From positions 1 to 31,779 of the IMG/VR virus record IMGVR_UViG_3300027541_000340: 31,779 nt of DNA; one strand, written 5' to 3'. The notes beneath the pieces were generated by a model that made no database searches, was not told the origin of the DNA, and saw only the letters and a program-made list of their open reading frames with translations. Numbering within the stretch: position 1 is the stretch's first letter; every line of letters starts with the position of its first letter. The DNA is from a virus. The position numbers were made by a program, and so were the translations under genes. Positions 4,977 through 24,961 of the stretch are shown here, piece by piece.

Positions 4977-5099
4977 ATGGGAAGTGCAGCAAAAAAACCA
5001 AGAGCAATGAGAAGCCGTAGAAGCGGTGTTAAGAAGAAAAAATTAATAGATGCTAATTTAGCAATCTTAAAAAAATTAGAAAATGATAAAACTAAGTAA
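4977..5099 (+). CDS. 40-residue basic protein
   Basis: An ATG at 4977, three bases after the previous stop, opens a 40-codon frame ending at TAA 5097-5099. The N-terminal half is very basic (many Lys and Arg, including 'RSRRSGVKKKK'). The C-terminal half is a predicted amphipathic helix (LIDANLAILKKLEND). The last 17 bases overlap the start of the next gene. It could be a nucleic-acid-binding or internal head peptide, judging only by charge and by its tagged neighbour. Confidence 0.5.
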   Translation: MGSAAKKPRAMRSRRSGVKKKKLIDANLAILKKLENDKTK

Positions 5100-5298
5100 A
5101 TTAATCAACGAAGTAGAAGTAGGACAGGGGCACGAAAACGATAGAGATATGGTTGTTGGTGTTGCCGAAATTCTTCGTATGGTAGATGATATGAACAATA
5201 GAAAACAAATAGCAGATGCTATGTTAAGAAAGTTCAAATCAGAAGATGTAATACATAATGCAAAGGAGTTTTTAACACTTTGTGGAATTTCTTCATAA
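5083..5298 (+). CDS. small protein with capsid-targeting-like N-terminal tag
   Basis: A 71-residue protein. Residues 1-10 (MIKLSKLINE) match the tag shared by five genes at 13389-15456, ending in I-N-E at residues 8-10, like the T4 prohead protease consensus (L/I-x-E). The rest is acidic then helical (VGVAEILRMVDDMNNRKQIAD), with no membrane segment. If cleaved, the mature protein would begin at Val11 and be about 61 residues. It starts inside the previous gene and is separated from the TonB receptor by a structured leader. A packaged internal protein is the best guess. Confidence 0.65.
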   Translation: MIKLSKLINEVEVGQGHENDRDMVVGVAEILRMVDDMNNRKQIADAMLRKFKSEDVIHNAKEFLTLCGISS

Positions 5299-5324
5299 TT
5301 TCTTAATATTAAAATAACCAATTT

Positions 5325-5387
5325 AGAGAAACGCTTTCATAGTTATTGGGGAACTAACCTAAAATAACTTTATGAGAGCGTTTCTTT
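5325..5387 (+). promoter_or_regulatory. Long RNA hairpin enclosing the TonB receptor start codon
   Basis: 5325-5341 pairs with 5371-5387 as RNA (17 pairs including two G-U). Just inside, 5342-5347 (GTTATT) pairs with 5363-5368 (AATAAC). The ATG at 5372 lies in the right arm, so initiation would be blocked unless the stem is melted or transcription starts within it. Confidence 0.7.
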
Positions 5388-7624
5388 TATTACTGTTACT
5401 TCCATTTGTAACATATTCCCAAGACACATTATTTTCCAAACAATTATCAACGGTTACAGTCCGTTCAGCAGGTAAAAAATCTACTGAAGTAGCTGTAATA
5501 TCAACCATTCGTAACGCATCAGTAGTTTCGGATGGTGTATCCATTGATTTTATTAAAAAAACACCTGATAGAAATGTTGGGGATGCACTTAAAAGAGTAA
5601 GTGGTGTTACTATACAAAACGATAAGTTTGTATTAGTAAGAGGATTAGCAGACCGTTATAATTCTGCTATGTTAAACAAAACCCTTCTACCATCAACTGA
5701 ACCTGATAGGAGAGCATTTTCTTTTGATTTAATTCCAACGGCATTAATTGATAATATTATAGTATCTAAATCGGCATCGGCAAATCTACCTGGCGATTGG
5801 AGTGGTGGATTGGTGCAAGTTTCAACAAAAGAAGTATCCGATAACTTTTTTAATATCTCATTGGGAAGTGGTTGGGGCTCAGTTTCATCTCTTAAAGATT
5901 TTAAGTTAGTTCAAGCTACTGAATTCCCTTCCACATTCCCATCCACATACAAATATCGTATTAGTGGTAATGGTGATAAAAGATTATACACAAAACAATT
6001 CAGTAATCCAATTGCTGAATCATTCACATCATCTCCAAACTTAAATGGCGGACTTTCATTTGGATATAAAAGAAATAAATGGAACGCATTATTTAGTTCA
6101 ACAATCAGAAATTCATATACTCTAAATTACATAGATAGAATAGATTATCAATCATCTACTGAATTAGCATATGATTACAAAGATACTTTATTTTCAAAAA
6201 GATTTTCCGCAAATGGTTTATTAAACTTAACTTATTTGGGTGAAAACCGATATAGTTGGAAAACATTAGTGAACTATCAAGCAGATGATAGCTATTTGAC
6301 TAGAAATGGTGAGAACTATGATAACGTTCAAAATGTTCATAGTAATTCAACAAATCATATAAACAATATTGTAATTAATTCTCAATTTGATGGCAAGATT
6401 AAAACTTTAGATTTTAATTTAGGATATAATTTTATATTCAGAGAGCAACCTGATTATAGAGTTAATCCAATTACAAAATCATTAGGTGTAAATGAACCAT
6501 ACGCAACTGCATGGAGAGATACATATCGCTTTTGGAGTGTAATGGATGAGAATAGTTTTAATGGTAATATTAACAAAGATTTTGGTAAGATAAAAGTTGG
6601 TGGTGGTTATCTAAAAAAGATTAGAGGATTTAATGCAAGAATTTTCAGATATACTTCAACTGATATGTTAGATGAAATAACTAACAATACAGACAAATAC
6701 ACTGCGGATTTTGATTTGGGTTCTCTTTATTCAATGTATGAGAACGATTTTGGTAAATGGAAACTAAACACAGGATTAAGAGGTGAATATAATTTATTTG
6801 ATGTATCTACCGCAGATTTTAGTGGACAAAAAGTAAATGTTAATAGAGAGTATTTAGACCTTTTACCTTCGTTAAATCTTTCTTATAATTTAGATAAAAC
6901 AAAATATAGATTTTCAGTAAGTAAAACATTAGCAAGACCTGAATTTAGAGAAGTAGCTAATTTTGCTTATTATGATTTTGTAAGAAATGCACAATTATTA
7001 GGTAATCCTAAATTAGAAAAATCTGACATCTATAATTTGGACTTAAAGTATGAATTATATCCAAAAGCAGGTGAGAACATTTCATTTTCATTATTTGGTA
7101 AAAACTTTATAAAACCAATTGAACAAATAGTAGCAGATGGCTCAGTTCCTTCAAACCTTTTATTAACATATACCAATCCAAAATCTGCAATTCTTTATGG
7201 TGCTGAATTAGAGGTTCGTAAAAAAATAAATGGCTGGTTTGATTTTTATACAAACGCATCGGTAATGAATTCCGAAGTAGAAGTGAATGGTGTTAAAAGA
7301 CAATTGCAAGGACAATCAAATTATGTATTAAACGCAGGAGTTAATATAAAGAAAAAGAACAATACTCTTAATCTAACTTATAATAGAGTTGGTGATAGAA
7401 TATCAGCAGTAGGATTTCAGGGTTATCCAAACATTTTTGAAAATAGTAGAAATGTATTGGATATAACCCTTTTACATAAACTTAAAAAAGGAGAAATAAA
7501 ATTGGCAATAGGTGATGTATTTTCGCAACCATCAATCTATTATCAAAAGTTACAAACAAAGAGAAATCTTATAAAAACAAACAACGAACAAACAATTTCA
7601 TTAACATTAAATTTGAATCTATGA
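5372..7624 (+). CDS. TonB-dependent outer-membrane receptor
   Basis: A 750-residue protein with signal peptide (MRAFLLLLLLPFVTYS, cleaved near residue 16). A TonB-box-like 'STVTVRSAG' follows, then a plug domain (about residues 45-150) with 'VGDALKRVSGVTI', 'VLVRGLADRYNS' and 'LIDNIIVSKSASANLPGDWSG'. The remainder is a beta barrel of alternating aromatic strands, ending in 'ISLTLNLNL'. Such receptors import large or scarce nutrients across the outer membrane using TonB energy. The N-terminal carboxypeptidase-like domain common in Bacteroidetes SusC proteins is absent. Its stop overlaps the next lipoprotein gene (ATGA), implying coupled expression. A hairpin covers its start codon. No frameshift or missing plug motif is seen, so it appears functional. 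A phage copy of such a gene is unusual. Confidence 0.9.
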   Translation: MRAFLLLLLLPFVTYSQDTLFSKQLSTVTVRSAGKKSTEVAVISTIRNASVVSDGVSIDFIKKTPDRNVGDALKRVSGVTIQNDKFVLVRGLADRYNSAMLNKTLLPSTEPDRRAFSFDLIPTALIDNIIVSKSASANLPGDWSGGLVQVSTKEVSDNFFNISLGSGWGSVSSLKDFKLVQATEFPSTFPSTYKYRISGNGDKRLYTKQFSNPIAESFTSSPNLNGGLSFGYKRNKWNALFSSTIRNSYTLNYIDRIDYQSSTELAYDYKDTLFSKRFSANGLLNLTYLGENRYSWKTLVNYQADDSYLTRNGENYDNVQNVHSNSTNHINNIVINSQFDGKIKTLDFNLGYNFIFREQPDYRVNPITKSLGVNEPYATAWRDTYRFWSVMDENSFNGNINKDFGKIKVGGGYLKKIRGFNARIFRYTSTDMLDEITNNTDKYTADFDLGSLYSMYENDFGKWKLNTGLRGEYNLFDVSTADFSGQKVNVNREYLDLLPSLNLSYNLDKTKYRFSVSKTLARPEFREVANFAYYDFVRNAQLLGNPKLEKSDIYNLDLKYELYPKAGENISFSLFGKNFIKPIEQIVADGSVPSNLLLTYTNPKSAILYGAELEVRKKINGWFDFYTNASVMNSEVEVNGVKRQLQGQSNYVLNAGVNIKKKNNTLNLTYNRVGDRISAVGFQGYPNIFENSRNVLDITLLHKLKKGEIKLAIGDVFSQPSIYYQKLQTKRNLIKTNNEQTISLTLNLNL

Positions 7625-8823
7625 AAAAGCTATTAGGAATTATTTTAGTATTAGGATTATTCAGTTGCAAAAAAGAATTAGGTGGAACTGATATTCCTGT
7701 AAATGTACCATCATCAACAATTTTGAGTGGTAACATCAACACAACAACAACTTTAACATCAGACAAAACATGGACCTTAAAAGGATATGTTTATGTAATT
7801 GATGGAGCAAAACTTATCATTCAGCCAGGTACAACAATCGTATCCGATATCGCTGAGAAAGGTGCATTAATTATTGAAAGAGGTGCACAAATAATTGCAG
7901 AAGGAACTGCGGCAAAACCAATTGTATTTACATCTGGTAAAGCTGTTGGTGAAAGAGCACCTGGTGATTGGGGTGGTGTGGTTATATTAGGTAGAGCAAC
8001 TACTAATAGAACTTCAGAACCAACAATTGAAGGTGGTATTGGTAGACCTTATGGTGGAACTAACGATTTGGATAATAGTGGTATCCTAAAATATGTTAGA
8101 ATTGAATACGCAGGAATTGCAGCAATGCCAAACTCCGAAATTAATGGATTAACATTAGGTGGTGTAGGTAGTGGAACAACTTTAGAGTATATCCAAACTG
8201 TTTACGCTAACGATGATGCATTTGAATTCTTTGGTGGAACTGTAAACGCTAAAAACTTATACGCATACGCAACTGCGGATGATGATTACGATTTTGATTT
8301 TGGATATAGAGGTTCGGTATCTTATTCAGTATCAAAGAGAGACCCACAATTCGTAGATGCTGGTGATGCTGGAAATGGTGTAGAGTGTGATAATGATGGA
8401 ACAGGTACAACTGCACAACCATTCACACATCCTAAATTAGATAATATGATTTTAGTTGGACCATTTGATGCGACCTCTTTAGCAAACCATAATTTAGGTT
8501 TAAGATGGAGACGTGCAACTCAATTTACAATGACTAACTCAAAAATCATTGGTTATCAAAAAGGTGGTTTCTCAATTGAAAGTAATGAAACTGCACAAGC
8601 TTATAAAGATGGAGTTTCTAAATTTGAAAACAATGAGATTCAGGCATTTGACCCATTGTTAAACTTCAAATCAACATCAACTGTTTTTACAGCAGCGGAT
8701 ATGAAAACAAAAGCTTTATCACAAGGTAATAAAGAGGTATCTTATACAAAATCTGAAATGGAAACGCTATCCAAACCAATATGGTCTAATGGATGGACTA
8801 GATTTCCATCAAAAGGTAATTAA
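7621..8823 (+). CDS. beta-helix outer-membrane lipoprotein, partner of TonB receptor
   Basis: A 400-residue protein with a lipoprotein signal (lipobox L-F-S-C at residues 13-16, then K-K-E). The body has the right-handed parallel beta-helix look of a Bacteroidetes family often encoded beside TonB receptors: 'WTLKGYVYVIDGAKLIIQPG', 'ALIIERGAQIIAEGTAAKPI', 'WGGVVILGRA', then 'LKYVRIEYAG' and an Asp-rich segment around 'ATADDDYDFDFGY'. The Asp-rich loop may bind metal. The gene overlaps the receptor by ATGA, so the two are probably made together, in the way SusD-type lipoproteins accompany SusC receptors, though this is a different fold. The ligand is unknown. A strong terminator follows. Confidence 0.85.
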   Translation: MKKLLGIILVLGLFSCKKELGGTDIPVNVPSSTILSGNINTTTTLTSDKTWTLKGYVYVIDGAKLIIQPGTTIVSDIAEKGALIIERGAQIIAEGTAAKPIVFTSGKAVGERAPGDWGGVVILGRATTNRTSEPTIEGGIGRPYGGTNDLDNSGILKYVRIEYAGIAAMPNSEINGLTLGGVGSGTTLEYIQTVYANDDAFEFFGGTVNAKNLYAYATADDDYDFDFGYRGSVSYSVSKRDPQFVDAGDAGNGVECDNDGTGTTAQPFTHPKLDNMILVGPFDATSLANHNLGLRWRRATQFTMTNSKIIGYQKGGFSIESNETAQAYKDGVSKFENNEIQAFDPLLNFKSTSTVFTAADMKTKALSQGNKEVSYTKSEMETLSKPIWSNGWTRFPSKGN

Positions 8824-8840
8824 TAATAAATTAATACAAT

Positions 8841-8872
8841 AACCCTCACTTCATAGTGGGGGTTTATTATTT
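8841..8872 (+). terminator. Rho-independent terminator
   Basis: A 10-bp stem (8841-8850 with 8855-8864, one G-U pair), loop TCAT, then a T-rich tail. It ends the receptor/lipoprotein operon. Confidence 0.88.
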
Positions 8873-8875
8873 ATA
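8868..8875 (+). promoter_or_regulatory. TATTTATA element after terminator
   Basis: TATTTATA right after the terminator, but only three bases before the glycosyltransferase ATG. If it is a promoter, the transcript would be nearly leaderless. This is the weakest match to the pattern in spacing. Confidence 0.35.
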
Positions 8876-8878
8876 TCT

Positions 8879-9595
8879 ATGTTAAACAAACAACTTACAA
8901 TTGTGATTCCTTGTAAAAACGAAGGCATCAACATTTATGATTGTGTAGGATTAATTCATAAACAAAAATTTGTAGAAGGAGTTCGTGTCATAATAGCAGA
9001 TTGTTCTGATGATATAGAATCTTTGAATTGGTTATATAGATGTATCGCAGATTTTTCTGATAAATTGATTATAAAAATAATTGATGGCGGATTTCCTGCA
9101 AAAGCCCGTTTAGAAGGTAGTAAATGGGTAACAACTCCATATATTCTTTTTTTAGATGCTGATATAATGTTGAAAGAAAGAGATGTTTTAATTCAATCAT
9201 ATGAAAATATTTTTGCATTTGAAAAACATTTATTAACAGTTCCTTTCCAAACCGAATATGGTTGGAATTGGGCATTTAGATTATTTGATATTACACAATG
9301 GCTAAGTTGTGCAATTGGAACACCATTTGCAATTGGTGGATTTCAATTATGGAATACAAAAGAATATTGGAAAACAGGTGGATACGTTGAAACTCAAAAA
9401 TTTGCAGAAGATTATTGGATTTCTTCAAAATGTAAAAAGAATAAATTTTTAATTCTAAGAATAAATGGTATTTGGACAAGTGCAAGAAGATTTAAGAAAA
9501 AAGGAATTCGTTATATGATATGGCTTATGATTAAAAGTTATATTAATAGAAATAATCCTAAGTTTTTTGATGAGGACCATAACTATTGGAAATAA
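8879..9595 (+). CDS. GT-A fold (family 2-like) glycosyltransferase
   Basis: A 238-residue soluble enzyme. It opens directly with the nucleotide-sugar binding strand 'LTIVIPCKNEG' (residues 6-16), continues with 'VRVIIADCSDD', and has the metal-binding D-A-D at residues 93-95 (ILFLDADIM). The acceptor-side elements 'GGFQLWNTKEYWKTGGY' and 'AEDYWIS' follow, then a basic C-terminal tail (ARRFKKKG). These are the usual family 2 motifs, and the length suits a single-domain enzyme with no membrane anchor. It probably transfers one sugar to lipid A, O-antigen, capsule or a virion protein. It overlaps the next phosphoesterase gene by one base (TAATG), suggesting a shared pathway. Confidence 0.85.
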   Translation: MLNKQLTIVIPCKNEGINIYDCVGLIHKQKFVEGVRVIIADCSDDIESLNWLYRCIADFSDKLIIKIIDGGFPAKARLEGSKWVTTPYILFLDADIMLKERDVLIQSYENIFAFEKHLLTVPFQTEYGWNWAFRLFDITQWLSCAIGTPFAIGGFQLWNTKEYWKTGGYVETQKFAEDYWISSKCKKNKFLILRINGIWTSARRFKKKGIRYMIWLMIKSYINRNNPKFFDEDHNYWK

Positions 9596-10335
9596 TGATA
9601 TATAAAGCAATTATAGTATCAGATTTACATTTAGGTACAAAAGATAGTAAAGCAGAGGAGTTTATAGAATTTATTGAAAAACATCCTACTGAATTATTAA
9701 TCCTTAATGGAGATATAATTGATGGGTGGGCAATCAATAGAGGAAGTAAATGGAAAAAACAGCATACAAAAGTAATAAGTAAATTATTAAAACTTTCAAA
9801 TAAAATTAAAATTATTTGGATAAGAGGAAATCACGATGAATTTGTTCAAGAATTTATTGGTTCGCATTTTGGGGGAGTTGAAATTAGAGAAGATTACCGA
9901 TTACAATATTATGAACATATTGAATATGATAATTGGAAATCAAAATGTTACTATATTTTTCACGGAGATGTAATTGATGTTTTTATTACCAAATATAAAT
10001 GGTTATCAAAGTTGGGAGCGGTTGGTTACGATTTTGCTCTTTGGTTAAATCGCCAATATAACAAATATCGCAAATGGAGAAATCTACCCTACCAATCAAT
10101 CTCTCAAAAAATCAAAGCAGGCGTAAAAGCCGCTACCAACTATGTTAATGATTTTGAGGTAACTGCTCTTAAAATGGCAGAAAAGAAAGGATGTGATGGA
10201 GTAATTTGTGGACATATTCATCAACCCGAAGATAGAGTTATAAATGGTAAGAGATATGTTAATAGTGGTGATTGGGTAGAAAATATGAGTGCAGTTTTGG
10301 TAGATACTTATGGAAGATTATATTTATATAGGTAA
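9595..10335 (+). CDS. LpxH-like metallophosphoesterase
   Basis: A 246-residue calcineurin-type phosphoesterase. All five metal-site blocks are present: D10 and H12 (SDLHLG), D40 (NGDIIDGW), N79-H80-D81 (RGNHDE), H123 (HGD) and H207-x-H209 (GHIHQP). A helical insert lies between the last two. This layout is that of UDP-2,3-diacylglucosamine diphosphatase-like proteins, which cleave the pyrophosphate in lipid A synthesis. The ATG at 9595 was chosen; a TTG nine bases upstream is less likely, and the ATG start gives a TAATG overlap with the glycosyltransferase. The pairing suggests modification of lipid A or another glycolipid. Substrate is not provable from sequence. Confidence 0.85.
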   Translation: MIYKAIIVSDLHLGTKDSKAEEFIEFIEKHPTELLILNGDIIDGWAINRGSKWKKQHTKVISKLLKLSNKIKIIWIRGNHDEFVQEFIGSHFGGVEIREDYRLQYYEHIEYDNWKSKCYYIFHGDVIDVFITKYKWLSKLGAVGYDFALWLNRQYNKYRKWRNLPYQSISQKIKAGVKAATNYVNDFEVTALKMAEKKGCDGVICGHIHQPEDRVINGKRYVNSGDWVENMSAVLVDTYGRLYLYR

Positions 10336-10345
10336 AACCTATATA
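10320..10345 (+). promoter_or_regulatory. ATATTTATA element plus 9-bp hairpin before an envelope gene
   Basis: ATATTTATA (10320-10328) spans the 3' end of the phosphoesterase gene. It overlaps a perfect inverted repeat, 10325-10333 with 10337-10345 (TATATAGGT/ACCTATATA), with a 3-base loop. The repeat contains the upstream stop codon and ends two bases before the next ATG. Confidence 0.5.
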
Positions 10346-10347
10346 AT

Positions 10348-11238
10348 ATGGAAAAAACACTTACATGGTTATTTGATTTTTCTGAATGGAAAACCAAAAT
10401 ACAATTCAGTAAAGGATTTGTTTGGGGATTAATTTTATTTTTTTCCCTTTTATTTTTTTCTAATATTACTTTCTCACAAGTTAGTAGTTGGAGAACAAAT
10501 CCACCACAACAAAGAGTAGAAGCTCCTAGAATACAACCATCAATCCCACAAAGAAATGATGTAAGTAAATGGAGAACACAAACTGAACCAATCAGACCAG
10601 GTCATCCAATTCCAACTCAACCCCTAACAAGAAGATGGAGACCTACATTGGCAAACCCATATGGATTAATGTGGGGAACTTGGGGATGGTATCAACCATA
10701 TCCTTACATTTGGCATGATAACTACGGATGGAGACATAAAAGTGTAGTTCGTATTTATGAGAATGGTAAAAGAGATACTGTTGTAGTAAAACCATTATTA
10801 ATTCAGGCTGGTTTAGGTAAAACTAATAATGAGCAAGCTAACTTTTGGGGAACTATTGGTGGACCTAAAGGATATTTCATTTTAGATTATGTAATGACAT
10901 ATGAAATAGATAGAAATCAATATTTTCCAAATGGTAATCTAGCTATCGCAGATTTTCCAATTAGTAAAGAGATATTTAAAAAAGAACATACCCTTTATTT
11001 AGGAGCTGGTAAGAGATTTGGTAAGTTGGGAGTACATGGTATGGTAGGATTTGGTAATGAGATTCAAAGATATCAAGGTAGAGATGCATTGGGTGGTATT
11101 TCTTTCCCAAAATCAAATATAAATTTTACAACAATTAAATTTGGCGCAGTTAAAGATTTTAAATGGTTTAGTTTGAAGTTTGATACTGACCCAATAAGAG
11201 GTTATTCACAGTTGGGTATTGGATTGAATAACTTTTAA
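10348..11238 (+). CDS. exported envelope protein with W-R-T repeats
   Basis: A 296-residue protein. A ~25-residue hydrophilic start precedes one hydrophobic segment, about residues 26-42 ('GLILFFSLLFFSNITFSQ'), which acts as an extended signal peptide or anchor. A Pro/Arg/Gln-rich linker follows, with two 'S-x-WRT' units, then a Trp/Tyr-rich part ('WGTWGWYQPYPYIWHDNYGW'). The second half alternates short strands ('KLGVHGMVGFGNEI', 'YSQLGIGLNNF'), as in outer-membrane barrels, and ends in Phe. It overlaps the next gene by one base. Function is not recognised; it may sit in the outer membrane with the following barrel-like protein. Confidence 0.7.
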   Translation: MEKTLTWLFDFSEWKTKIQFSKGFVWGLILFFSLLFFSNITFSQVSSWRTNPPQQRVEAPRIQPSIPQRNDVSKWRTQTEPIRPGHPIPTQPLTRRWRPTLANPYGLMWGTWGWYQPYPYIWHDNYGWRHKSVVRIYENGKRDTVVVKPLLIQAGLGKTNNEQANFWGTIGGPKGYFILDYVMTYEIDRNQYFPNGNLAIADFPISKEIFKKEHTLYLGAGKRFGKLGVHGMVGFGNEIQRYQGRDALGGISFPKSNINFTTIKFGAVKDFKWFSLKFDTDPIRGYSQLGIGLNNF

Positions 11239-12710
11239 TGAAAAAATGGATAATTGGTATTATAGTATTGTTTTTGTTTGCTTTTAAAGCTAACGGACAA
11301 ACCTATACCCAAACTTTTGTTGATAAATGTACTGGTGAAATTAAGGTTGCAACAACTACAATGGTAAATGGAAGTGCAACGGTATCTTTCTATAATCAGG
11401 TTAGAACTTTTACTCCATTGGAAGTACAAAGTGGAGCAGTACAGGCTTGGATAGCAGCAACTTATGCAGCTTATTCAACTATGGCATGTCCTACTAATCA
11501 AGTTGTTCAACAAACTGTAACACAAGCAGTTTCTCAAGCAGCATCACAAGCTGCATCACAAGCAGCAGCCGCAGCTTCATCTGCAGCTAGTTCAGCAGCT
11601 TCATCGGCAGCAAGTTCAGCAGCATCTTCATCAGCAAGTTCCGCTGCAAGTAGTTCTGCAAGTTCAGCTGCATCTTCATCGGCAAGTAGTTCTGCAGCAA
11701 GTAGTGGAGCATCTTCATCAACACCACCTTCTAGTTCATCCTCGTCACAAAGTGGGGGTAGTTCTTCATCATCCTCGTCACAAAGTGGGGGTAGTTCTTC
11801 GGAAAGTAAGGGTAGTGGTAGTTCTACTGAGCAAAAGAGTGAGCAAAAGACAGAACAAAAATCTGAGCAAAAACAAGAACAAAAACAGGAAGAAAAGAAA
11901 GAGGAATCTAAATCAGAATCTAAAAAAGAAGAAAAAAAGGAAGAATCTAAAGAAGAAAAGAAAGAAGAATCAAAAGAGGAAAAGAAAGACGAGAAAAAAG
12001 AAGAAAAGAAAAGTGAAAAAAAAGAAGAAAAGAAAAAACAAAGAGCTCAAGTATCTTCTCCAATGATATTAGCATCCGATTTAGCATCTAACCAATCTCC
12101 TGATAAAACAACTTCTTTAATGTTATCTATGGGTGTATCTAAATCATCTTTAATGGGTGATAAATCATATTCTGCTACCGCACTTATATGGAGTACTTTA
12201 GACCAATTTGCTTTAAGTGGTGGGGTTACTAAGATGGATTTTGATGAAGGTAAACTAAATGGTATTCATTCGTATTCAGCAACTGTTGCATATCTAAAAG
12301 GAACTTTTATGGCTATGCAAGGATACACTTATATCAAACCGCATCCTAAATACGGAACTTATGGTTTTAATGCTGGATTGATTAGTTTATTTATGAGAAA
12401 TGTGGAAAACACTGGATATGATTATTCATTGATGACTTCTTTTGTTGGGTTTTGGACTAAACCTTACCAAATTAACAGGAAAACCACTTTATCCCCTCAG
12501 GTTTTCGTTATGAATTCACCAATTAGTCTAAACACTATGACTGGAAATACTATGGTAAATCGTTCCCCTGGCTTTATATTAGGTTCTGGGTATGATTATA
12601 AAATAAGTAGAAGATTTGCTTTAGGAGCATCCTATAAAGCTGTAATTGCAATTTCTCCACAATTTAGTATGTTACATAATTTCCAAATTGGTTCAAAATT
12701 GGCATTTTAA
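11238..12710 (+). CDS. outer-membrane barrel protein with Ser/Ala and Lys/Glu spacers
   Basis: A 490-residue protein with signal peptide ('IIVLFLFAFKANG-Q', cleaved near residue 20). A small N-terminal domain (to ~95) is followed by a Ser/Ala repeat (about 97-161), a Ser/Gly/Gln segment with an 11-residue tandem repeat, and a Lys/Glu/Ser run (about 197-269) that could form a charged single helix. The last ~220 residues alternate amphipathic strands and end in '...IGSKLAF', the terminal-Phe signature of outer-membrane barrels. The layout suggests a barrel carrying a long periplasmic or external arm. An overlapping 120-codon frame in the repeat region is a by-product of the composition. Confidence 0.75.
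   Translation: MKKWIIGIIVLFLFAFKANGQTYTQTFVDKCTGEIKVATTTMVNGSATVSFYNQVRTFTPLEVQSGAVQAWIAATYAAYSTMACPTNQVVQQTVTQAVSQAASQAASQAAAAASSAASSAASSAASSAASSSASSAASSSASSAASSSASSSAASSGASSSTPPSSSSSSQSGGSSSSSSSQSGGSSSESKGSGSSTEQKSEQKTEQKSEQKQEQKQEEKKEESKSESKKEEKKEESKEEKKEESKEEKKDEKKEEKKSEKKEEKKKQRAQVSSPMILASDLASNQSPDKTTSLMLSMGVSKSSLMGDKSYSATALIWSTLDQFALSGGVTKMDFDEGKLNGIHSYSATVAYLKGTFMAMQGYTYIKPHPKYGTYGFNAGLISLFMRNVENTGYDYSLMTSFVGFWTKPYQINRKTTLSPQVFVMNSPISLNTMTGNTMVNRSPGFILGSGYDYKISRRFALGASYKAVIAISPQFSMLHNFQIGSKLAF
11736..11800 (+). repeat. Tandem 33-base repeat within the Ser/Gly spacer
   Basis: A 32-base unit at 11736-11767 recurs perfectly at 11769-11800 (period 33), encoding an 11-residue Ser/Gln/Gly unit. 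This is a recent slippage-type duplication within coding sequence. Confidence 0.85.
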
Positions 12711-12718
12711 TATTTATA
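12710..12718 (+). promoter_or_regulatory. ATATTTATA element, putative phage late promoter
   Basis: ATATTTATA followed by CACATAAAA, 20 bases before an ATG. The extended form ATATTTATAnACATA is shared with the copies at 16287 and 20917. Confidence 0.55.
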
Positions 12719-12738
12719 CACATAAAAACTAATATCTT

Positions 12739-13389
12739 ATGAAAAAATTGTTGAATTTCAAAAACATCGCAATCGCTGCATTAATCATATATTGTTTATT
12801 ACAGTGGTTTAACCCAGGTGGAGTTATGCCGGGTGGTAGAACTATCAGAATTGATGGTAAAAAATACGAAGTTATAAAACACACAATAGATACTGTAGAA
12901 GTTGAAAAAACTAAAGTGGTAACTAAAAAAGGAAAAGATATTGTGCATGAAGTAATTGAGCACGATACTACAATCCAATTAGTAAATGTTGATACAGCAG
13001 CTTTATTAAAGGATTACTTAGCAAAAGTAGTTTACAAAGATACTTTAAAATTAGATGAAGGATTGGGAACTATTGCATTAACCGATACTATTACTAAGAA
13101 TAGAATTTTAGGTAGAACTTGGGATGCTAAGATTAAACAAAGAGAAATCAAAGAAACTCTTATTGTTAAAGAACCTGCTAAAATGCAAGTATTCTATGGT
13201 TTGAATGCAGGATTTAACAAAACTGATTATGTTTCGTCAGTTGGAGCTGGTTTAGTATTAAAAACTAAAAAGGACAAACTTTACAACTTCAATATTGGTG
13301 TAAACAATAGAACTACTGATGGTACAAATGGTTCATTCTCACCTTATGTTGGATTTGGTACATATTGGAAAATTAAAGTAAAGAAATAA
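12739..13389 (+). CDS. inner-membrane-anchored periplasmic protein with beta C terminus
   Basis: A 216-residue protein. One N-terminal membrane segment (about residues 8-24, 'NIAIAALIIYCLLQWF') lacks a clear cleavage site. 'IDGKKYEVIKHTIDTVEVEK' and an elongated Val/Lys/Asp-rich middle follow, as in Bacteroidetes phage proteins with a KKYEVIKHTIDTV signature. The last ~70 residues alternate strands ('QVFYGLNAGFNKTDYVSSVG', 'SPYVGFGTYWKIKVKK'). An anchor at one end and a beta domain at the other could bridge inner and outer membranes, as spanins do, though the fold is unlike known spanins. It overlaps the next tagged gene by one base. Confidence 0.65.
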   Translation: MKKLLNFKNIAIAALIIYCLLQWFNPGGVMPGGRTIRIDGKKYEVIKHTIDTVEVEKTKVVTKKGKDIVHEVIEHDTTIQLVNVDTAALLKDYLAKVVYKDTLKLDEGLGTIALTDTITKNRILGRTWDAKIKQREIKETLIVKEPAKMQVFYGLNAGFNKTDYVSSVGAGLVLKTKKDKLYNFNIGVNNRTTDGTNGSFSPYVGFGTYWKIKVKK

Positions 13390-13730
13390 TGATAAGTTTA
13401 AAAGCATTATTAACAGAAGCAAAATTTCCGATATATCATAAAACATATACATCGGCTATTAACTCAGCATTAGACTGGGCTAAAAAGTCTGGATATCAAA
13501 TGGATGATGAAGAAATTGCAAGAGAAATAGGAATGGGGCCAAAAAAACCATCCGAAGGTAAAACAAATAGATTTTCTATTAGTTTAACAAAAGGTGGAAA
13601 ACCACAAAGAAAGCAATTACACATTCAAGTGTATAATATGGGAACTTTCAAAAGAAACTTAGATGGTTCTAAAACAAGAAGTATGTTTGGTGGTCAAAAT
13701 GAATTTGAACTAAACTGCTATATTGGATAG
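13389..13730 (+). CDS. tagged conserved phage protein
   Basis: A 113-residue protein beginning MISLKALLTE, the window's 10-residue tag with L-T-E at positions 8-10 and Ala at 11, the closest match to the T4 internal-protein cleavage site. The body ('YHKTYTSAINSALDWAKKSG', 'GMGPKKPSEGKTNRFSI', 'LHIQVYNMGT') resembles small conserved proteins I recall from marine T4-like phages, where a similar tag is also present. No catalytic residues are evident. The middle is basic and Gly/Pro-rich, and the C terminus is beta. It is the first of five consecutive tagged genes, linked by one- to four-base overlaps. A packaged head protein is the likely role. Confidence 0.75.
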   Translation: MISLKALLTEAKFPIYHKTYTSAINSALDWAKKSGYQMDDEEIAREIGMGPKKPSEGKTNRFSISLTKGGKPQRKQLHIQVYNMGTFKRNLDGSKTRSMFGGQNEFELNCYIG

Positions 13731-14044
13731 TGATACTTCTAAAAGATATATTAGCAGAAGACCTTCGTAAATGGTTTGGTAAAGGTAAGACTGGTTCTAC
13801 TACTGGTGGGGGTTGGGATAGATATAATACAAAGGGAGAGAAAGTAGGTAAGTGTGGGGATAGCAAAGAAGGTTCAGCATACGCAGCATGTTTATCAAAA
13901 GAAAAAGCAGCTAAGTTAGGACCTGATGGTAGAGCAGCATTTGTAAAGAGAAAAAGAGCAGCTCAATCAAAAGCAGGAGATGCTAAAAAAGGTGGAGAAA
14001 AATCAAAAGGACAAAAACCAACATTTGTAAAAACAGGTGCATAA
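13730..14044 (+). CDS. tagged basic protein, DUF5872-like
   Basis: A 104-residue protein. A GTG start at 13730 overlaps the previous stop (TAGTG). The tag MILLKDILAE ends in L-A-E at residues 8-10. The body is 'RKWFGKGKTG', 'GGWDRYNTKGEKVGKCGDSK', 'AYAACLSKEKAAKLGPDGRA', 'FVKRKRAAQSKAGDAKKGG'. This pattern, with two conserved Cys and a very basic Ala/Lys tail, matches DUF5872-type proteins that I recall in phages and also in large eukaryotic viruses. The charge suggests DNA contact inside the head. Function is not established. Confidence 0.7.
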   Translation: MILLKDILAEDLRKWFGKGKTGSTTGGGWDRYNTKGEKVGKCGDSKEGSAYAACLSKEKAAKLGPDGRAAFVKRKRAAQSKAGDAKKGGEKSKGQKPTFVKTGA

Positions 14045-14232
14045 TGATTAAGTTAAAAGATATATTAAACGAAGAAATTAAACTTAATGTGAAAGTTGGT
14101 GATACTGTTCTTATGGGTAAATTTAAAAACAAAAAAATTGTTGTTAAATCCATAGATAAAGATGAATGGGGAATGCCAACGATAAATGGAAAAAAGGCAG
14201 TAACTTTTAGAATACCTAAAAAAGAGAAATGA
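14044..14232 (+). CDS. tagged small beta protein
   Basis: A 62-residue protein: tag MIKLKDILNE (L-N-E at 8-10), then a short beta domain 'VKVGDTVLMGKFKNKKIVVK' and 'GMPTINGKKAVTFRI'. The strand-turn-strand layout with a G-K-F-K-N-K core looks like an SH3- or KOW-like barrel and resembles small proteins of T4-like marine phages. After removal of the tag it would be about 52 residues. It overlaps both neighbours (TAATG upstream, ATGA downstream). Confidence 0.65.
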   Translation: MIKLKDILNEEIKLNVKVGDTVLMGKFKNKKIVVKSIDKDEWGMPTINGKKAVTFRIPKKEK

Positions 14233-14876
14233 TAAAATTAACTGACATATTAGTAAAAAATAAAGAAACAGGTAAGAAGTACGATGTCAAAAAAGTAAAT
14301 CCTGAAAAGCATGAATTTGCTTGGGATTTTAGAGGTAGTAAAGAAAATCCTAATCCTTTTAAAAAAGAAAAACCAAAAAAAGATGATGTAAAAGAACATC
14401 ATCATGTAACACCAAATGAAAGAATTTCTAAATACAAAGAAAGAATTCAAAAGATAAAAGATAAAATAGCAAAAGCAGAAGACAAAAATTCAGATACAGT
14501 TAAATTACAAAAAAACCAAATTAAAGTTATTACTCAAACTATGAATAACTTTAAACAATCTCAAGCTATTAAAAAAGCAAAAACATCTGAGAACATAGAA
14601 GAAAAATGGAGTCAGAAGTATAAACGTTCTATTGATTGTAATAACCCAAAGGGATTTTCTCAAAAAGCACATTGTCAGGGTAGAAAAAAGAATGAATTGG
14701 TAGAAGAAGCACTTGAATTATTTTTAGAAAAGAATTGTCCAACTGACCCAGAAAAGTGGTCAGCATCTAAAGCAGCAGCAAAAAGTAAGTTTGATGTATA
14801 TCCATCAGCTTATGCAAATGGATGGGCTGCAAAAAATTACAAATCAAAAGGTGGTGGTTGGAAAACCTGTAAATAA
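14229..14876 (+). CDS. tagged basic protein with two viral Cys/Lys modules
   Basis: A 215-residue protein. The tag is MIKLTDILVK, in which the usual Glu at residue 10 is Lys, so the cleavage site may be lost. After a charged helical region come two compact modules: 'EKWSQKYKRSIDCNNPKGFS' with 'QKAHCQGRKK', and 'CPTDPEKWSASKAAAKSKFD' with 'VYPSAYANGWAAKNYKSKGG' and a closing Cys. Both resemble small Cys/Lys modules I recall in phages and in giant eukaryotic viruses, suggesting a nucleic-acid or structural role in virions. A possible second L-x-E site, 'ELFLE', lies between the modules. It follows the other tagged genes in the same operon. Confidence 0.7.
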   Translation: MIKLTDILVKNKETGKKYDVKKVNPEKHEFAWDFRGSKENPNPFKKEKPKKDDVKEHHHVTPNERISKYKERIQKIKDKIAKAEDKNSDTVKLQKNQIKVITQTMNNFKQSQAIKKAKTSENIEEKWSQKYKRSIDCNNPKGFSQKAHCQGRKKNELVEEALELFLEKNCPTDPEKWSASKAAAKSKFDVYPSAYANGWAAKNYKSKGGGWKTCK

Positions 14877-14877
14877 T

Positions 14878-15456
14878 ATGATAAAGTTAAAATCATTAAT
14901 CAAAGAAAATTTTGTACAAGAAGCTGTAACATGGCTATTTGTAAATCTGGCTATATTTGTAATTAGTAATGTCATAAGAGGTATCAGAAATAAATCCGAA
15001 TATAAAAATTATACACAAGAACCACATATAAAATGGTTAGATAGAATTGGTAACAATACTAATTTTAATAAATATGTTTACTTTACACTTAAAAATGATA
15101 AAAAAATAAAAGAGTTTGATGTAGAAGTAGAAAAATTAAAAGATACCAATAAATCTATGAAAAAAACAAATTTACTTTGGGATAAATTTCAATATGAAAA
15201 ATCTTTGGTTAGTAAATGGTTAAGTTCCAAAATAGCACAAGACGAATTAGAAAAAACATTCAAAGAAATACATCCAGACAAAAATGAAAATAGTAAAGAT
15301 ATTCCATTAAAAAACGGACTAACAATAAGTTACAAACAATGGAAAAATAATATAACTAGGGATGCGGTTAAGGAATGGGCTGATGTATTAAATGATGGTA
15401 CTACAAAAAAGTTTATAAATAAATTTGCACAACAACAAGGATTACCAACCATATGA
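14878..15456 (+). CDS. tagged protein with one hydrophobic segment
   Basis: The start chosen is the ATG at 14878, one base after the previous stop, because it places the tag MIKLKSLIKE (I-K-E at 8-10) at the N terminus; an upstream in-frame ATG (14791) would overlap the previous gene. The protein has 192 residues. Residues ~16-35 ('AVTWLFVNLAIFVISNVI') form one membrane-like segment directly after the tag. The remainder is charged and helical ('KEIHPDKNENSKDI', 'DAVKEWADVLNDGTTKKFIN'). If packaged and injected, the hydrophobic segment could interact with the host membrane. No enzyme motif is visible. Confidence 0.65.
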   Translation: MIKLKSLIKENFVQEAVTWLFVNLAIFVISNVIRGIRNKSEYKNYTQEPHIKWLDRIGNNTNFNKYVYFTLKNDKKIKEFDVEVEKLKDTNKSMKKTNLLWDKFQYEKSLVSKWLSSKIAQDELEKTFKEIHPDKNENSKDIPLKNGLTISYKQWKNNITRDAVKEWADVLNDGTTKKFINKFAQQQGLPTI

Positions 15457-16271
15457 TAAACGAATGTATTATTGTATCCAAAGAAGTTGGAGATAAGTTT
15501 ATCTTAGCTAAAAATAGAGATAGAGCTTACAAACCAAAACTAGAAGTGGTTCATACTATTATAGATGGTATTGAAGTAGCATATCTACATGATATGATTA
15601 CTGATTGGAGTGAGGGTATGAACGCCAATGGTATCGGTGTTGTAAATGCGGCTCTTTTGGTTGGACATGATGAAGCAGAAAAAAAGTTAGTTAAAAAAGT
15701 TGGTAAGCCTGGACCTGATGGTGATAAAATGAGAAATATCATCAAACAACCAACTCTTAAAAAAGCATTAATAGCTTGTTTGACATATAAAGGTAAATCA
15801 ACTCTTGCATTAAAAGGTCATACATTTATATCTTCTCCAAAACATATGATTAGTGTTGAAGCCACATCTAAACATAAACCTGATGTAAAACTTCACAATA
15901 CTGAACATCCGGTAGTTAGAACAAATCATGGACATGTATTTACTGATGCTGGATATACACATGGCGAAAAATATCTTTCATCTAAAATGAGAAAGATAAG
16001 TGCTGAAAAGACTGTTGAAAAGGTAACGGATTGGACACAAATAGCACAAGCTATGAGAAAAGAGTTCTTCCCAAAAGAATCACAATTAAATATGAGAAGA
16101 CAGGCTAAAGATATGTTTACATCTTCTCAAACTATAATGAATCTTACCGATAGAATATTAGAAATTGAGTATTTTGCGGATAAAGTAGAATCATTCGAAG
16201 GGGTTAGAAACGAACTACCAAAAGATTATCAACCAAAGATAAAAATACAGGTTAGAAAGCTTGAATCCTAA
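15453..16271 (+). CDS. Ntn-hydrolase-like amidase (C45/choloylglycine type)
   Basis: A 272-residue protein. The start 'MINECIIVSKEVGDKFILAK' followed by 'NRDRAY' (N21-R22-D23) and 'DWSEGMNANGIGVVNAAL' fits N-terminal-nucleophile hydrolases of the acyltransferase/choloylglycine type. In that group a Cys at the mature N terminus attacks linear amides. The likely nucleophile is Cys5, so residues 1-4 (MINE) must be removed. Those four residues end in I-N-E, the same L/I-x-E cleavage signature as the neighbouring tags. The C-terminal half is helical with a basic end. It overlaps the last tagged gene by ATGA. Substrate is unknown; cell-wall or lipid amides are candidates. Confidence 0.65.
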   Translation: MINECIIVSKEVGDKFILAKNRDRAYKPKLEVVHTIIDGIEVAYLHDMITDWSEGMNANGIGVVNAALLVGHDEAEKKLVKKVGKPGPDGDKMRNIIKQPTLKKALIACLTYKGKSTLALKGHTFISSPKHMISVEATSKHKPDVKLHNTEHPVVRTNHGHVFTDAGYTHGEKYLSSKMRKISAEKTVEKVTDWTQIAQAMRKEFFPKESQLNMRRQAKDMFTSSQTIMNLTDRILEIEYFADKVESFEGVRNELPKDYQPKIKIQVRKLES

Positions 16272-18632: not shown

Positions 18633-19898
18633 ATGTCTTGGGCTTTATTTAAGGCAAATATATTAAAATATTCTAACAATCCAAACTCTTTACCTGATTT
18701 AAGGAGTGTTGCCAAATTATGGACAAAGGAATATGATGCGGCAATAAAAAGAGGATATGATACTGTTAATTTTGTAAAAGTTAAAAAAGGAAATACAGAA
18801 TTAATGGAAGAACTTTTTTATGCAGCTTTATTAAAAGGACAATCATCAAAACAACCATATGATTTAGTTGGTGAATTGGGAAAAGCAGTTCAAGCTTATT
18901 GGACAGGTGCAACACTAAATGAATTACCACCACCAATAATACCTGCACCGGGTTCAACGGCAAACATAAGCACTGTATCAAATATAGTAACAAATGTAGG
19001 ACAATGGACTCCACCACAACAAGTTGCACCAACACCACCAAATAAAGAAGCTAAAGAAACTGTTAAAAAAGATTTTGAGCAATATAAAGAATCTCAAAAA
19101 GAATACGAAAATTTATTTAAAACAACAATAATTGTTTATGATGATAGATTACCAACACCAACTCAAATAAAACAAGAAACTTTAGAATACAAAAGAGATA
19201 TAGGTCAAGAAGATACATCCGATACTTCTGATATTGGAAAGGATGAAGAAGACCCAAAGCCAAAACCAAAAATAGATCCTGTTAGGGGAGATAAAAAATT
19301 ATTTGATAAGGTTGGAAATGGATTATGGCCTGCAAAGGGAGAATATGGTAATTTTGTTGTAAACATACCATCAACAAAAAAAGAAGCTTGGTATAAAAAG
19401 AAACAATTGACAACATCTGATGAAATAAACCAATATTTGCAGCAAACAGGTGGTAAAGGTGTAAGAGTTTGGTTCGAAAGAAATCCAGAGTATATTCAAA
19501 AAAATTGTACTACAATTGCAATTCCTTTAGCAAATGGAGAAACATCTGTTTTAGTTCATAAACAACTTAAAATAGTTGCAGAACCTGCTTTTCAAAAAAT
19601 AAAAGCCAAAGGATTAAATAAATTTATAAAAACTTGTTCAGGTGGGCTAGCTATAAGAAATGTAACAAACGGAACTCGTTTATCAAATCATAGCTGGGGA
19701 TTGGCAATTGATATGAATGCTGATATATATCCGATAGGAACTAAATTTGGTTCTGATGGGATATATGAAGGAAAAACTAAAATTAGAGATTTTAATGATT
19801 TTGATTTGGGATTTTTGGAAGTAGCTAAAGTTTTTCAAAATGAGGGAATGACTTGGTTAAAAAGTTTTGACCCAATGCACGTTTCAATATATGAATAA
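18633..19898 (+). CDS. tail-associated M15-type peptidase, first of two
   Basis: A 421-residue protein. The N-terminal ~100 residues are helical, and a long Pro/Thr/Lys linker follows (about 105-220). The C-terminal ~150 residues hold an M15 (VanY-like) peptidase: 'RLSNHSWGLAIDMN' gives zinc ligands H353 and D360 (S-x-H-x-x-G-x-A-x-D), and 'DPMH' gives H416 with D413 in the usual acid position. Such enzymes cut the D-Ala end or cross-bridge of peptidoglycan peptides. With no signal peptide and a position in the baseplate module, it is more likely a tail-tip enzyme opening the wall at injection than a free endolysin. Confidence 0.8.
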   Translation: MSWALFKANILKYSNNPNSLPDLRSVAKLWTKEYDAAIKRGYDTVNFVKVKKGNTELMEELFYAALLKGQSSKQPYDLVGELGKAVQAYWTGATLNELPPPIIPAPGSTANISTVSNIVTNVGQWTPPQQVAPTPPNKEAKETVKKDFEQYKESQKEYENLFKTTIIVYDDRLPTPTQIKQETLEYKRDIGQEDTSDTSDIGKDEEDPKPKPKIDPVRGDKKLFDKVGNGLWPAKGEYGNFVVNIPSTKKEAWYKKKQLTTSDEINQYLQQTGGKGVRVWFERNPEYIQKNCTTIAIPLANGETSVLVHKQLKIVAEPAFQKIKAKGLNKFIKTCSGGLAIRNVTNGTRLSNHSWGLAIDMNADIYPIGTKFGSDGIYEGKTKIRDFNDFDLGFLEVAKVFQNEGMTWLKSFDPMHVSIYE

Positions 19899-19908
19899 TA
19901 TTTAAGTT

Positions 19909-20892
19909 ATGTCAATAATAGACCCTACAAAAAATACTTCTTTAATAATTGATGATTTTATTCAATATGCTACTCAGCATTTAACTACAGTTTCGGGAGT
20001 AGCTTCAACAATATCATTATATCCAACTGTACCTGTACCAACTCCTGGACCAGGTGTGGTTATTTGGTCTGGTTATACAGTAACACCATCAACCCCATCA
20101 CCACAAATACCACCATCCGATGATTCACCAGAATCAGAAGGAAAGGGTGTAGATGAACATGAAAAAAATAATGGCAAGGTAGATAGTGATAAAAAAATAG
20201 AAGCCAAACCAGCCGAACAAGCTACAACAAATTTTGATTACGCACCAAGATCAGCACCCACTCCTATACAAGGTGAACCACCTACCGATTTTAAACCAGA
20301 AGAAAAACAACCTTCAACTGAAAATTTAAAAAAGATAGAAAGTGGCCCACCAGCTAAAATATTTGCTCAAGTTGGAGCTATTGGAGTTTCAGCACCACCT
20401 GATTGGAAAGGTAAATACGAAAATGGAACTTTACCACCAGATACTATGATTGGTGTTGAAAAGGGTGGTAGGGCAGAATATACATACAAAGGTACGGGTG
20501 GTTGGTATCTACTACATCCAGAAGCAGCAAATCAATATTTTAAACTTAAAGCAGCTGCAAAATCTGCTGGTATTGGATGGACAATAACATCTGCTTATAG
20601 AAGTGTATCGCATCAAAGTTCTTTGGGTAGTGGTTCTACAATAGCTAAAGCTGGTAAATCTCCACATGGTTGGGGATTAGCACTAGATTTTGGTGAATTG
20701 TATAGAGCAGTTGGTGGTAGTGGTGTACCTAGTGTTAATAAACAAGGTAGAGAAACATCATCTTTATATAGATGGCTATCCAACAATGCGCCTAAATATG
20801 GGTGGTATAATCCATATAGATTGGCAGATGGTAATGGTGTTGATGAGATGTGGCATTGGGAATATTGGGGATTTTATACAGACAAGGTATAA
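19909..20892 (+). CDS. tail-associated VanY-like M15 peptidase, second of two
   Basis: A 327-residue protein. A disordered Pro/Glu/Lys-rich N-terminal half (to about 150) is followed by a VanY-type D-Ala-D-Ala carboxypeptidase domain: 'GWTITSAYRS' substrate loop, 'SPHGWGLALDFG' with H253 and D260, and 'DEMWHWEYWG' with E313 and H316. All zinc and catalytic residues are present. The sequence is clearly different from the M15 domain upstream, so it is not a recent duplicate. No signal peptide. It may act with the upstream enzyme at the tail tip or serve as the endolysin, since no other lytic enzyme is visible in this window. Confidence 0.82.
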   Translation: MSIIDPTKNTSLIIDDFIQYATQHLTTVSGVASTISLYPTVPVPTPGPGVVIWSGYTVTPSTPSPQIPPSDDSPESEGKGVDEHEKNNGKVDSDKKIEAKPAEQATTNFDYAPRSAPTPIQGEPPTDFKPEEKQPSTENLKKIESGPPAKIFAQVGAIGVSAPPDWKGKYENGTLPPDTMIGVEKGGRAEYTYKGTGGWYLLHPEAANQYFKLKAAAKSAGIGWTITSAYRSVSHQSSLGSGSTIAKAGKSPHGWGLALDFGELYRAVGGSGVPSVNKQGRETSSLYRWLSNNAPKYGWYNPYRLADGNGVDEMWHWEYWGFYTDKV

Positions 20893-23887: not shown

Positions 23888-24954
23888 TGGCATACTATTT
23901 TTTAACAGCATCAAAAGATGCATCGGTTTATCTTCAACAACCAAATCAAAATACTGGTTTGGATGAGATATTAGAAGTAAGTAAAGTTTACTATGGAAAT
24001 ATAAAAGATATTTCTAGAGCACTTTTAAAATTTGAAGTGGGATTTTTATCATCATCTTTGGTTGATACATCAATCTCTATGTCTGAAGCAACTTTAATAT
24101 TAAAAGAAACAAAGAGTGAAGAAATTCCATTAGAATATACAATTTATGCAAATGCTGTTTCAAGAAGTTGGGAAATGGGTACTGGTACTAGATTTGATAA
24201 TATTTCAACACAAGGGGTAACTTGGAATTATAGAGAAGGCGATACTAAATTAGATTGGTTAGATAATAGTTTAGCAGATGGTAGTGATGCTAATCCAAAT
24301 AATGGTACAGGTGGTACTTGGTGGATAGCAAATTCAGCATCTCAATCATTTAGTTATAAAACAGCTGATATAGAAATGAATGTAAAATCTTTACTTCAAT
24401 CTTGGATGAGTGGTTCTAGACCAAATGATGGTATTATTATAAAATATTCAGATACTTTTGAAAATGATACTAAAGATTATGGACAATTAAAGTTCTTTTC
24501 TAAAGAAACAAATACAATATACCAACCTAAAATAAGAATTGGTTGGAACGACCAAAACTTTTCAACAGGAACATTAACAGCAATTTCTAACGATGATATT
24601 AAAATAGGAATTACTAATCTTAAAAAAGAATACAAAGTAGGAACAACTCCAAAATTAAGAATTTTTGCTAGAGAGTTATATCCATTAAAAAGTTTTTCAA
24701 ATTCTTTTTCTTACAACACAACAAAATATTTACCGCAAACATCATATTATCAAATAAAAGATTTTGCATCAAATGATATTATAATACCATTTAGTGATTA
24801 TTCAAAAATAAGTTGCGATTCAACAAGTAATTTTATTAATTTAAATTTATCAAATTGGGAATCGGATAGAGTATATAAAATTGAATTTAAAGTTATTTTA
24901 AATGGAAGTGTTCAATACTTTGATGATGAAATAACGTTTAGTGTTGTAAAATAA
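23887..24954 (+). CDS. baseplate-associated protein with DNRLRE-like domain
   Basis: A 355-residue beta-rich protein. The first ~220 residues match a DNRLRE-type domain: 'YYFLTASKDASVYLQQPNQN', 'SRALLKFEVG', 'EYTIYANAVSRSWEMGTGTR', 'VKSLLQSWMSG' and 'NDGIIIKYSDTFEND'. The rest is an Ig-like or jelly-roll beta region. It follows the gp6-like gene and precedes a coiled-coil protein, so a wedge or fibre-attachment role is likely. No signal peptide. DNRLRE domains in bacteria sit in surface proteins; here it is probably a virion module. Confidence 0.65.
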   Translation: MAYYFLTASKDASVYLQQPNQNTGLDEILEVSKVYYGNIKDISRALLKFEVGFLSSSLVDTSISMSEATLILKETKSEEIPLEYTIYANAVSRSWEMGTGTRFDNISTQGVTWNYREGDTKLDWLDNSLADGSDANPNNGTGGTWWIANSASQSFSYKTADIEMNVKSLLQSWMSGSRPNDGIIIKYSDTFENDTKDYGQLKFFSKETNTIYQPKIRIGWNDQNFSTGTLTAISNDDIKIGITNLKKEYKVGTTPKLRIFARELYPLKSFSNSFSYNTTKYLPQTSYYQIKDFASNDIIIPFSDYSKISCDSTSNFINLNLSNWESDRVYKIEFKVILNGSVQYFDDEITFSVVK

Positions 24955-24961
24955 GAATAAA

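Follow-up and report, generated by a model that had tools for sequence, protein, structure and literature searches.

A ten-residue N-terminal tag resembling the T4 capsid-targeting propeptide on unrelated proteins of Bacteroidota-linked phages

Introduction

Why do six small genes with otherwise unrelated bodies, in one fragment of a phage genome, begin with the same ten-residue pattern? The window considered here, meaning the whole stretch of DNA analysed, is an entire IMG/VR record of 31,779 bases, and 6 of its 37 genes carry M-I-x-L-x-x-[IL]-[IL]-x-[E/K] at the N terminus. The pattern is very probably a capsid-targeting propeptide of the T4 CTS type, which would be cut after E10 by a gp21-type protease and would bring mostly basic cargo into the head, for probable ejection with the DNA. 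In the proposed mechanism, hydrophobic residues 4 and 7 of the tag would bind the prohead core; a protease of the T4 gp21 type would cut behind E10, at the site L/I-x-E, and free a mostly basic cargo protein inside the head; and the cargo would probably be ejected with the DNA into a Bacteroidota host. Longer, multi-module versions would probably be split as well, at L/I/V-x-E sites of their own. From sequence comparison we infer that the tag binds the core and that the proteins are cleaved, packaged and injected and act as effectors.

Tagged genes and the cargo island

The sequence-only reading had placed six genes with a shared start at 5083, 13389, 13730, 14044, 14229 and 14878, with L/I-x-E at residues 8-10 in five and Lys at residue 10 in the sixth. 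All six are open reading frames at these starts, and residue 10 is indeed Glu in five and Lys in one (14229). The features are as follows.

5083-5298, plus strand: tagged gene 1 (71 aa), tag MIKLSKLINE at 5083-5112, acidic body (pI 5.2)
12739-13389, plus strand: untagged gene bordering the cargo island on the left, retained by several relatives
13389-13730, plus strand: tagged gene 2 (113 aa), tag MISLKALLTE at 13389-13418, body of pI 9.6
13730-14044, plus strand: tagged gene 3 (104 aa), opening with GTG, tag MILLKDILAE at 13730-13759; the body is basic (pI 10.1)
14044-14232, plus strand: tagged gene 4 (62 aa), tag MIKLKDILNE at 14044-14073
14229-14876, plus strand: tagged gene 5 (215 aa), a protein of several modules with the tag-like start MIKLTDILVK (Lys at residue 10)
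14595-14603, plus strand: candidate internal protease site I-E-E of gene 5, preceding the module KWSQKYKRSIDC
14718-14729, plus strand: candidate internal protease site L-F-L-E of gene 5, preceding the module KNCPTDPEKW
14878-15456, plus strand: tagged gene 6 (192 aa), tag MIKLKSLIKE at 14878-14907, a hydrophobic helix and then an all-helical body
15453-16271, plus strand: untagged gene bordering the cargo island on the right, retained by several relatives

Five tagged genes form a tightly packed run at 13389-15456, where the first four junctions overlap (TAATG, TAGTG, TAATG, ATGA) and the 14878 gene begins one base past the end of the preceding gene. Relatives retain the bordering genes 12739 and 15453 with differing mixtures of tagged genes between them, as expected of a cargo island; in the reading proposed here, the run is a shuffling set and the tag moves between bodies. 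The body of gene 1 is common to tagged proteins of the relatives L161, G003 and G006. That of gene 2 also occurs in relatives as an internal module, there after ITE, VTE, IKE or VSE, and that of gene 4 recurs inside the long head-block polyproteins of G001-G004, as an internal module with [LI]xE in front. The KNCPTDPEKW module of gene 5 has FLE or LLE in front in most relatives. Gene 3, with its GTG start in the window, starts with ATG in relatives, and the 14878 start is an internal ATG of a longer reading frame that opens at 14791.

Five of the six window bodies have a pI of 9.5-10.1. Searched against Pfam, the six gave no family above the cut-off, and against PHROGs only weak or partial matches to families of unknown function or, weakly, to GroES. 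In AlphaFold models of two tagged proteins the first 31-46 residues are of low confidence; for the 14878 protein, residues 1-46 have a pLDDT below 50 and the body is helical, and a search of this model against the PDB returned no match to the body fold.

Strength of the tag signal

With residues 2-15 shuffled, 0.012 of the 37 window genes would be expected to carry the tag by chance, and two or more never occurred in 20,000 shuffles, against the six observed. For a wider comparison, 80 related loci were retrieved via the baseplate gene gp6. In these gp6 relatives, window included, the strict form of the tag opens 35 of 2,221 first-ATG reading frames against 5 of 8,630 internal ATGs (Fisher 1e-19), and E10 is present in 30 of 56 'MIxL' starts against a background of 3.9%. 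The tag is unevenly spread: some relatives are tag-poor, and the 168-kb G001 has a single clear MIxL tag. Tagged proteins of immuto, whose host is Flavobacterium sp. LMO8, are encoded at 24569-24994 (MIKLIDLLTE) and 103366-103806 (MISIYNILKE).

An independent scan of viral contigs used a degenerate DNA form of MIKLKx[hydrophobic][hydrophobic]xE. Among the matches listed, which cover 80 loci, 102 of 111 are first-ATG starts of reading frames of at least 40 residues, and 21 of the 80 loci have several tags. In a matched control with the E10 codons changed to Q, 16 of 80 matches listed are gene starts and none of 80 loci has several; this control is conservative, since it also caught a few real variants such as L277, whose site lies at residue 14. 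The search for further tagged genes that the sequence-only reading had proposed has thus yielded many, with unrelated bodies, both in related phages and in viral contigs.

Protease, capsid and head genes in relatives

The same reading had tied its prediction to a gp21-like prohead protease gene in the genome. Such a gene is present in all five long relatives; in the window record, a search for protease and head genes found no protease, no capsid gene and no head genes, and the protease is absent because the record is a fragment. We infer that a gp21-type protease is encoded in the missing part of this phage's genome. The missing head block probably lies to the left, beyond the end of the record, since window genes 2787, 3066 and 3708 match three genes straight after the G001 capsid gene. 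The window does contain the baseplate genes gp25 (21418) and gp6 (21851), and by gp6 (41-44% identical) the nearest annotated phages are Flavobacterium phage immuto and Microcystis phage Mel-JY01 (as deposited).

The protease of the long relatives (immuto, Mel-JY01, G001, G002 and G004) belongs to PF03420, the T4 gp21-type family (S77), and that of immuto matches the T4 gp21 structure 5jbl with E=2e-13. All five keep GELxHP and G[IV]SSRG, the regions of the catalytic His and Ser of T4 gp21. The immuto capsid protein matches gp23 structures, and the cut column of the major capsid proteins of the long relatives (IVSE|A, LISE|A, LLDE|A) aligns with FLTE|A of T4 gp23; the aligned column predicts that the protease of this lineage uses L/I-x-E sites.

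Tagged genes also stand among head genes. In G002 and G004 they lie inside the terminase-portal-protease-scaffold-capsid block, with one gene, for an acidic protein, placed between those for terminase and portal and with others in the interval from protease to scaffold, and in Mel-JY01 a gene starting MISLKSLIK directly follows the capsid gene. Among the matches listed of the contig scan, most of them on fragments, PF03420 is found in only 21 of 50 tag-bearing records against 9 of 50 control records (p=0.016), and the Gp23 capsid protein in 15 of 50 against 8 of 50.

These gene positions bear on a different destination for the tagged proteins. If the tag were a short amphipathic helix addressing them to the host membrane, the tail or the baseplate and not to the capsid, this would suit the ability of MIKLKDLLxE to form such a helix, the hydrophobic helix in the 14878 body and the location of the window cargo island just upstream of the baseplate genes. 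However, a membrane or tail address gives no role to the L/I-x-E end of the tag or to its recurrence before modules, nor to the head-block positions and the match to propeptides of T4 head proteins, and we consider it very unlikely.

Cargo bodies and internal modules

A capsid-targeting propeptide should be portable, and the claim of the sequence-only reading that the tag behaves as a portable address on unrelated bodies has held on a larger scale: among the matches listed from viral contigs, at least 179 tagged genes group into 93 body clusters, of which 64 are single. The bodies matched in Pfam include zeta-toxin/AAA_33 kinase with NT5C, HD, RNase_T exonuclease and phage lysozyme with LysM, as well as NUDIX, Mom, phosphoribosyltransferase and several DUFs; the majority of the tagged bodies had no family match in this search. 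Median body pI over the clusters is 9.2, against 5.7 for other reading frames of at least 150 residues, a comparison set that was unfiltered for real genes.

Some tagged bodies look ADP-ribosyltransferase-like by eye. Runs of tagged proteins at L443:1584-2435, L448:11592-16437 and L153:1576-3263 carry an RG motif early in the body (LLYRGRE, LLFRGE, LLIRGS, RLYRGV); these are perhaps ADP-ribosyltransferases, and the members tested against Pfam gave no convincing family. One tagged protein matches PTS_2-RNA and ART-PolyVal in Pfam, below the cut-off. For a common cargo family this identity was considered and is not claimed, because the AlphaFold model has a pLDDT of 72 and Foldseek returned no significant match.

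Homologues that lack a complete tag are also found for 29 of the body clusters, many of them inner modules of longer head-block proteins. Of 80 such inner junctions, where the first half of the tag is gone, 39 have [ILVMF]-x-E ending precisely at the junction, against 1.9 expected from random positions within the same proteins (maximum 8 in 5,000 trials); some of the remaining junctions have the site displaced downstream by four or five residues (LFLE|KNCPTDP, LLTE|GGAYGHM). The proteins of greatest length (945-1,567 aa) begin MSDLSKFLVE, MSELSNFLVE, MKGLAKYLIE or MSTLSTFLAE, which are other letters at the same positions. Since many modules are preceded by their own L/I/V-x-E site, the prohead protease probably also splits the longer versions, and splitting of multi-module cargo proteins by this protease would be the simplest reading of the junctions.

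Whether these are cargo polyproteins in the full sense seems to us evenly balanced. The tag at the front would then bring the whole protein into the prohead, the protease would cut at L/I/V-x-E before the modules, and separate effectors, a shuffled assortment of zeta-toxin-type kinase, Nudix, HD, Mom, exonuclease, lysozyme and many unknowns, would reach the host with the DNA. If true, one gene would load several capsid cargoes, and the tag would expose a large repertoire of injected effectors in uncultured phages of the T4 superfamily.

Very long proteins are encoded upstream of the terminase gene at G001:90055-94569, G002:17269-20451, G003:4747-7584 and G004:16030-20733; by eye they have a nucleotidyltransferase-like front (GRFQPFHKGH), a ligase-like module (EKTDGQAL) and many small modules.

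A functionless relic of duplication or fusion, with one ancestral leader copied onto many genes, would be compatible with the probably shared ancestry of the tags and with decaying internal tags such as MKLRNLLNE within a 747-aa protein of G004. A relic would nevertheless decay evenly, whereas in distant lineages E10 and hydrophobic residues 4, 7 and 8 persist and other positions change. Internal junctions retain only the x-E site, and the unrelatedness of the 93 listed clusters likewise argues against a relic, leaving this explanation a slim chance. Scarcely credible is a nucleotide element of translation initiation or regulation with an incidental peptide: every tag does sit at a start codon, several of them in a packed operon with TAATG or ATGA overlaps, and ATGATAAA is common at the DNA level, but synonymous codons vary inside the tag (including at L4, L7 and L8) and constraint is concentrated on amino-acid positions 4, 7, 8 and 10, the same positions are kept in polyproteins with different letters and in the huge phage LR756508, and the L/I/V-x-E part recurs away from start codons. 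Because its synonymous codons vary, the tag is conserved as a peptide.

Variants of the processing site

Natural variants (K10, shifted sites and internal sites) offer a way to tell targeting apart from processing. In the 14229 gene the tag joins the domain ILVKNKETGKKY directly, with no spacer; in other phages this domain is found at a greater distance behind a normal tag, as in L167, or within the head-block protein MEL 22429. K10 therefore looks like a fusion of tag and body minus the cut site. Lys is found at this position also in the relative L203. The 14229 protein would be targeted with no cut at position 10, which fits the effect of Asp at position 10 of the IPIII CTS, where processing is prevented and targeting is not (PMC9026906). 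L277 keeps the targeting half and has the site moved to residue 14, MIKLKTIIEQLIVE|A; its HAD body is the same as that behind MIKLLDILLE|K in L196 (47% identical).

Host and neighbouring genes

The TonB-receptor gene of the window (5372) shares 68% identity, and the gene after it (7621) 76%, with neighbouring genes of Aquirufa antheringensis, a member of the Bacteroidota. Together with the infection of Flavobacterium by immuto, the Aquirufa-like operon supports a Bacteroidota host, as had been predicted from the window's letters; the comparison points to a freshwater Bacteroidota host from which the receptor operon was derived. The pair at 5372-8823, in which the TonB-dependent receptor has a PF07715 plug and a PF14905 barrel and is followed by the second gene, is a host outer-membrane uptake operon in a phage. 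A family-2 glycosyltransferase and a calcineurin-like phosphoesterase adjoin the receptor genes (8879-10335) and possibly modify the host surface.

In the 490-aa protein at 11238-12710, a long run of serine and alanine precedes one of lysine and glutamate. Just upstream of the baseplate genes, at 18633-20892, two adjacent proteins of the D-Ala-D-Ala carboxypeptidase type (Peptidase_M15_4, VanY) are probably tail-associated wall enzymes. PP395634 (L082, L149, L150), a phage labelled as infecting Microcystis, has baseplate, protease and tags as in the Bacteroidota-linked phages, so this host label may be questionable.

Comparison with known systems

The sequence-only reading had attributed MKTYQEFIAE to T4 internal proteins IPI-IPIII; this is right for IPII and IPIII, which start so, and not for IPI, which begins MKTFKEFTSTTTPVSTITE. 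By eye the nearest T4 match to the tag is gp24 (MAKINELLRE), which is closer than the internal proteins. Targeting of IPIII depends mainly on residues 4 and 7 and its processing on residues 8 and 10; the T4 internal proteins are basic, and the CTS is suggested to let T4-like phages in general load a variety of proteins (PMC9026906). A position rule derived from these targeting and processing residues finds ipII, ipIII and gp24 in T4, plus one false hit. Run on cyanophage S-PM2, pelagiphage HTVC008M and Rhodothermus phage RM378, it gave no enrichment, so the code is not shared by the T4 superfamily as a whole. About ten convincing genes with a related consensus at the same positions occur in the 484-kb uncultured phage LR756508 (400 kb covered).

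Like the CTS of T4 IPII and IPIII, the tag consists of ten N-terminal residues on otherwise unrelated, mostly basic proteins, with hydrophobic or aromatic residues at 4 and 7, L/I-x-E at 8-10 and a gp21-type protease (here in relatives). It differs in its letters (MIKLKxLLxE), in standing on many genes with enzyme bodies instead of a few, and in occurring also on multi-module proteins. For IPIII, the packaging of a foreign protein by the peptide has been addressed in a fusion experiment. No convincing homology was found between the tagged bodies and IPI-IPIII, the best matches (E about 0.003, in a three-sequence database) spanning 16-28 residues. With the gp24 propeptide, which is short (10-20 residues reported; PMC5694885), the tag shares K3, a hydrophobic residue 4, L7, L8 and E10; the T4 propeptide, however, is on a capsid shell protein, whereas the tag is on many cargo-like proteins. 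T4 Alt, a packaged and injected ADP-ribosyltransferase, offers a parallel in concept, namely an enzyme packaged in the head whose short N-terminus is processed, but the ADP-ribosyltransferase match here is not significant (weak in Pfam, and without a significant hit in the structure search).

The multi-module proteins resemble polyvalent proteins (Iyer et al., 2017; PMC5512222) in combining several unrelated enzyme domains with predicted entry alongside the DNA. Processing of polyvalent proteins has been attributed to built-in peptidase domains, in contrast to the prohead-protease sites between modules seen here, and the polyvalent-domain matches among tagged multi-module proteins are one weak MPTase-PolyVal and a weak LPD13. 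P1 DarB has an N-terminal address that is sufficient to package a reporter in the capsid (PMC9024508), yet its CTS exceeds 9 residues and no motif is common to the Dar proteins, unlike the short, shared tag of these phages. Within the literature covered, outside which many subscription journals lie, nothing was found on immuto virion proteins or on a CTS search in uncultured phages, which is not proof of novelty.

With a ten-residue rule that is searchable in raw sequence, the vague class of proteins inside phage heads would become a list of candidates. The list obtained here has at least 179 genes in 93 families, most of them functionally uncharacterised and likely to act early, within the first minutes of infection. 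The head cargo of uncultured Bacteroidota phages can thereby be tested directly in a cultured relative, Flavobacterium phage immuto, and the tag is a possible delivery tag for phages of Bacteroidota. The class of mechanism is that known from the T4 CTS; what is new is the code, its breadth and the modular proteins.
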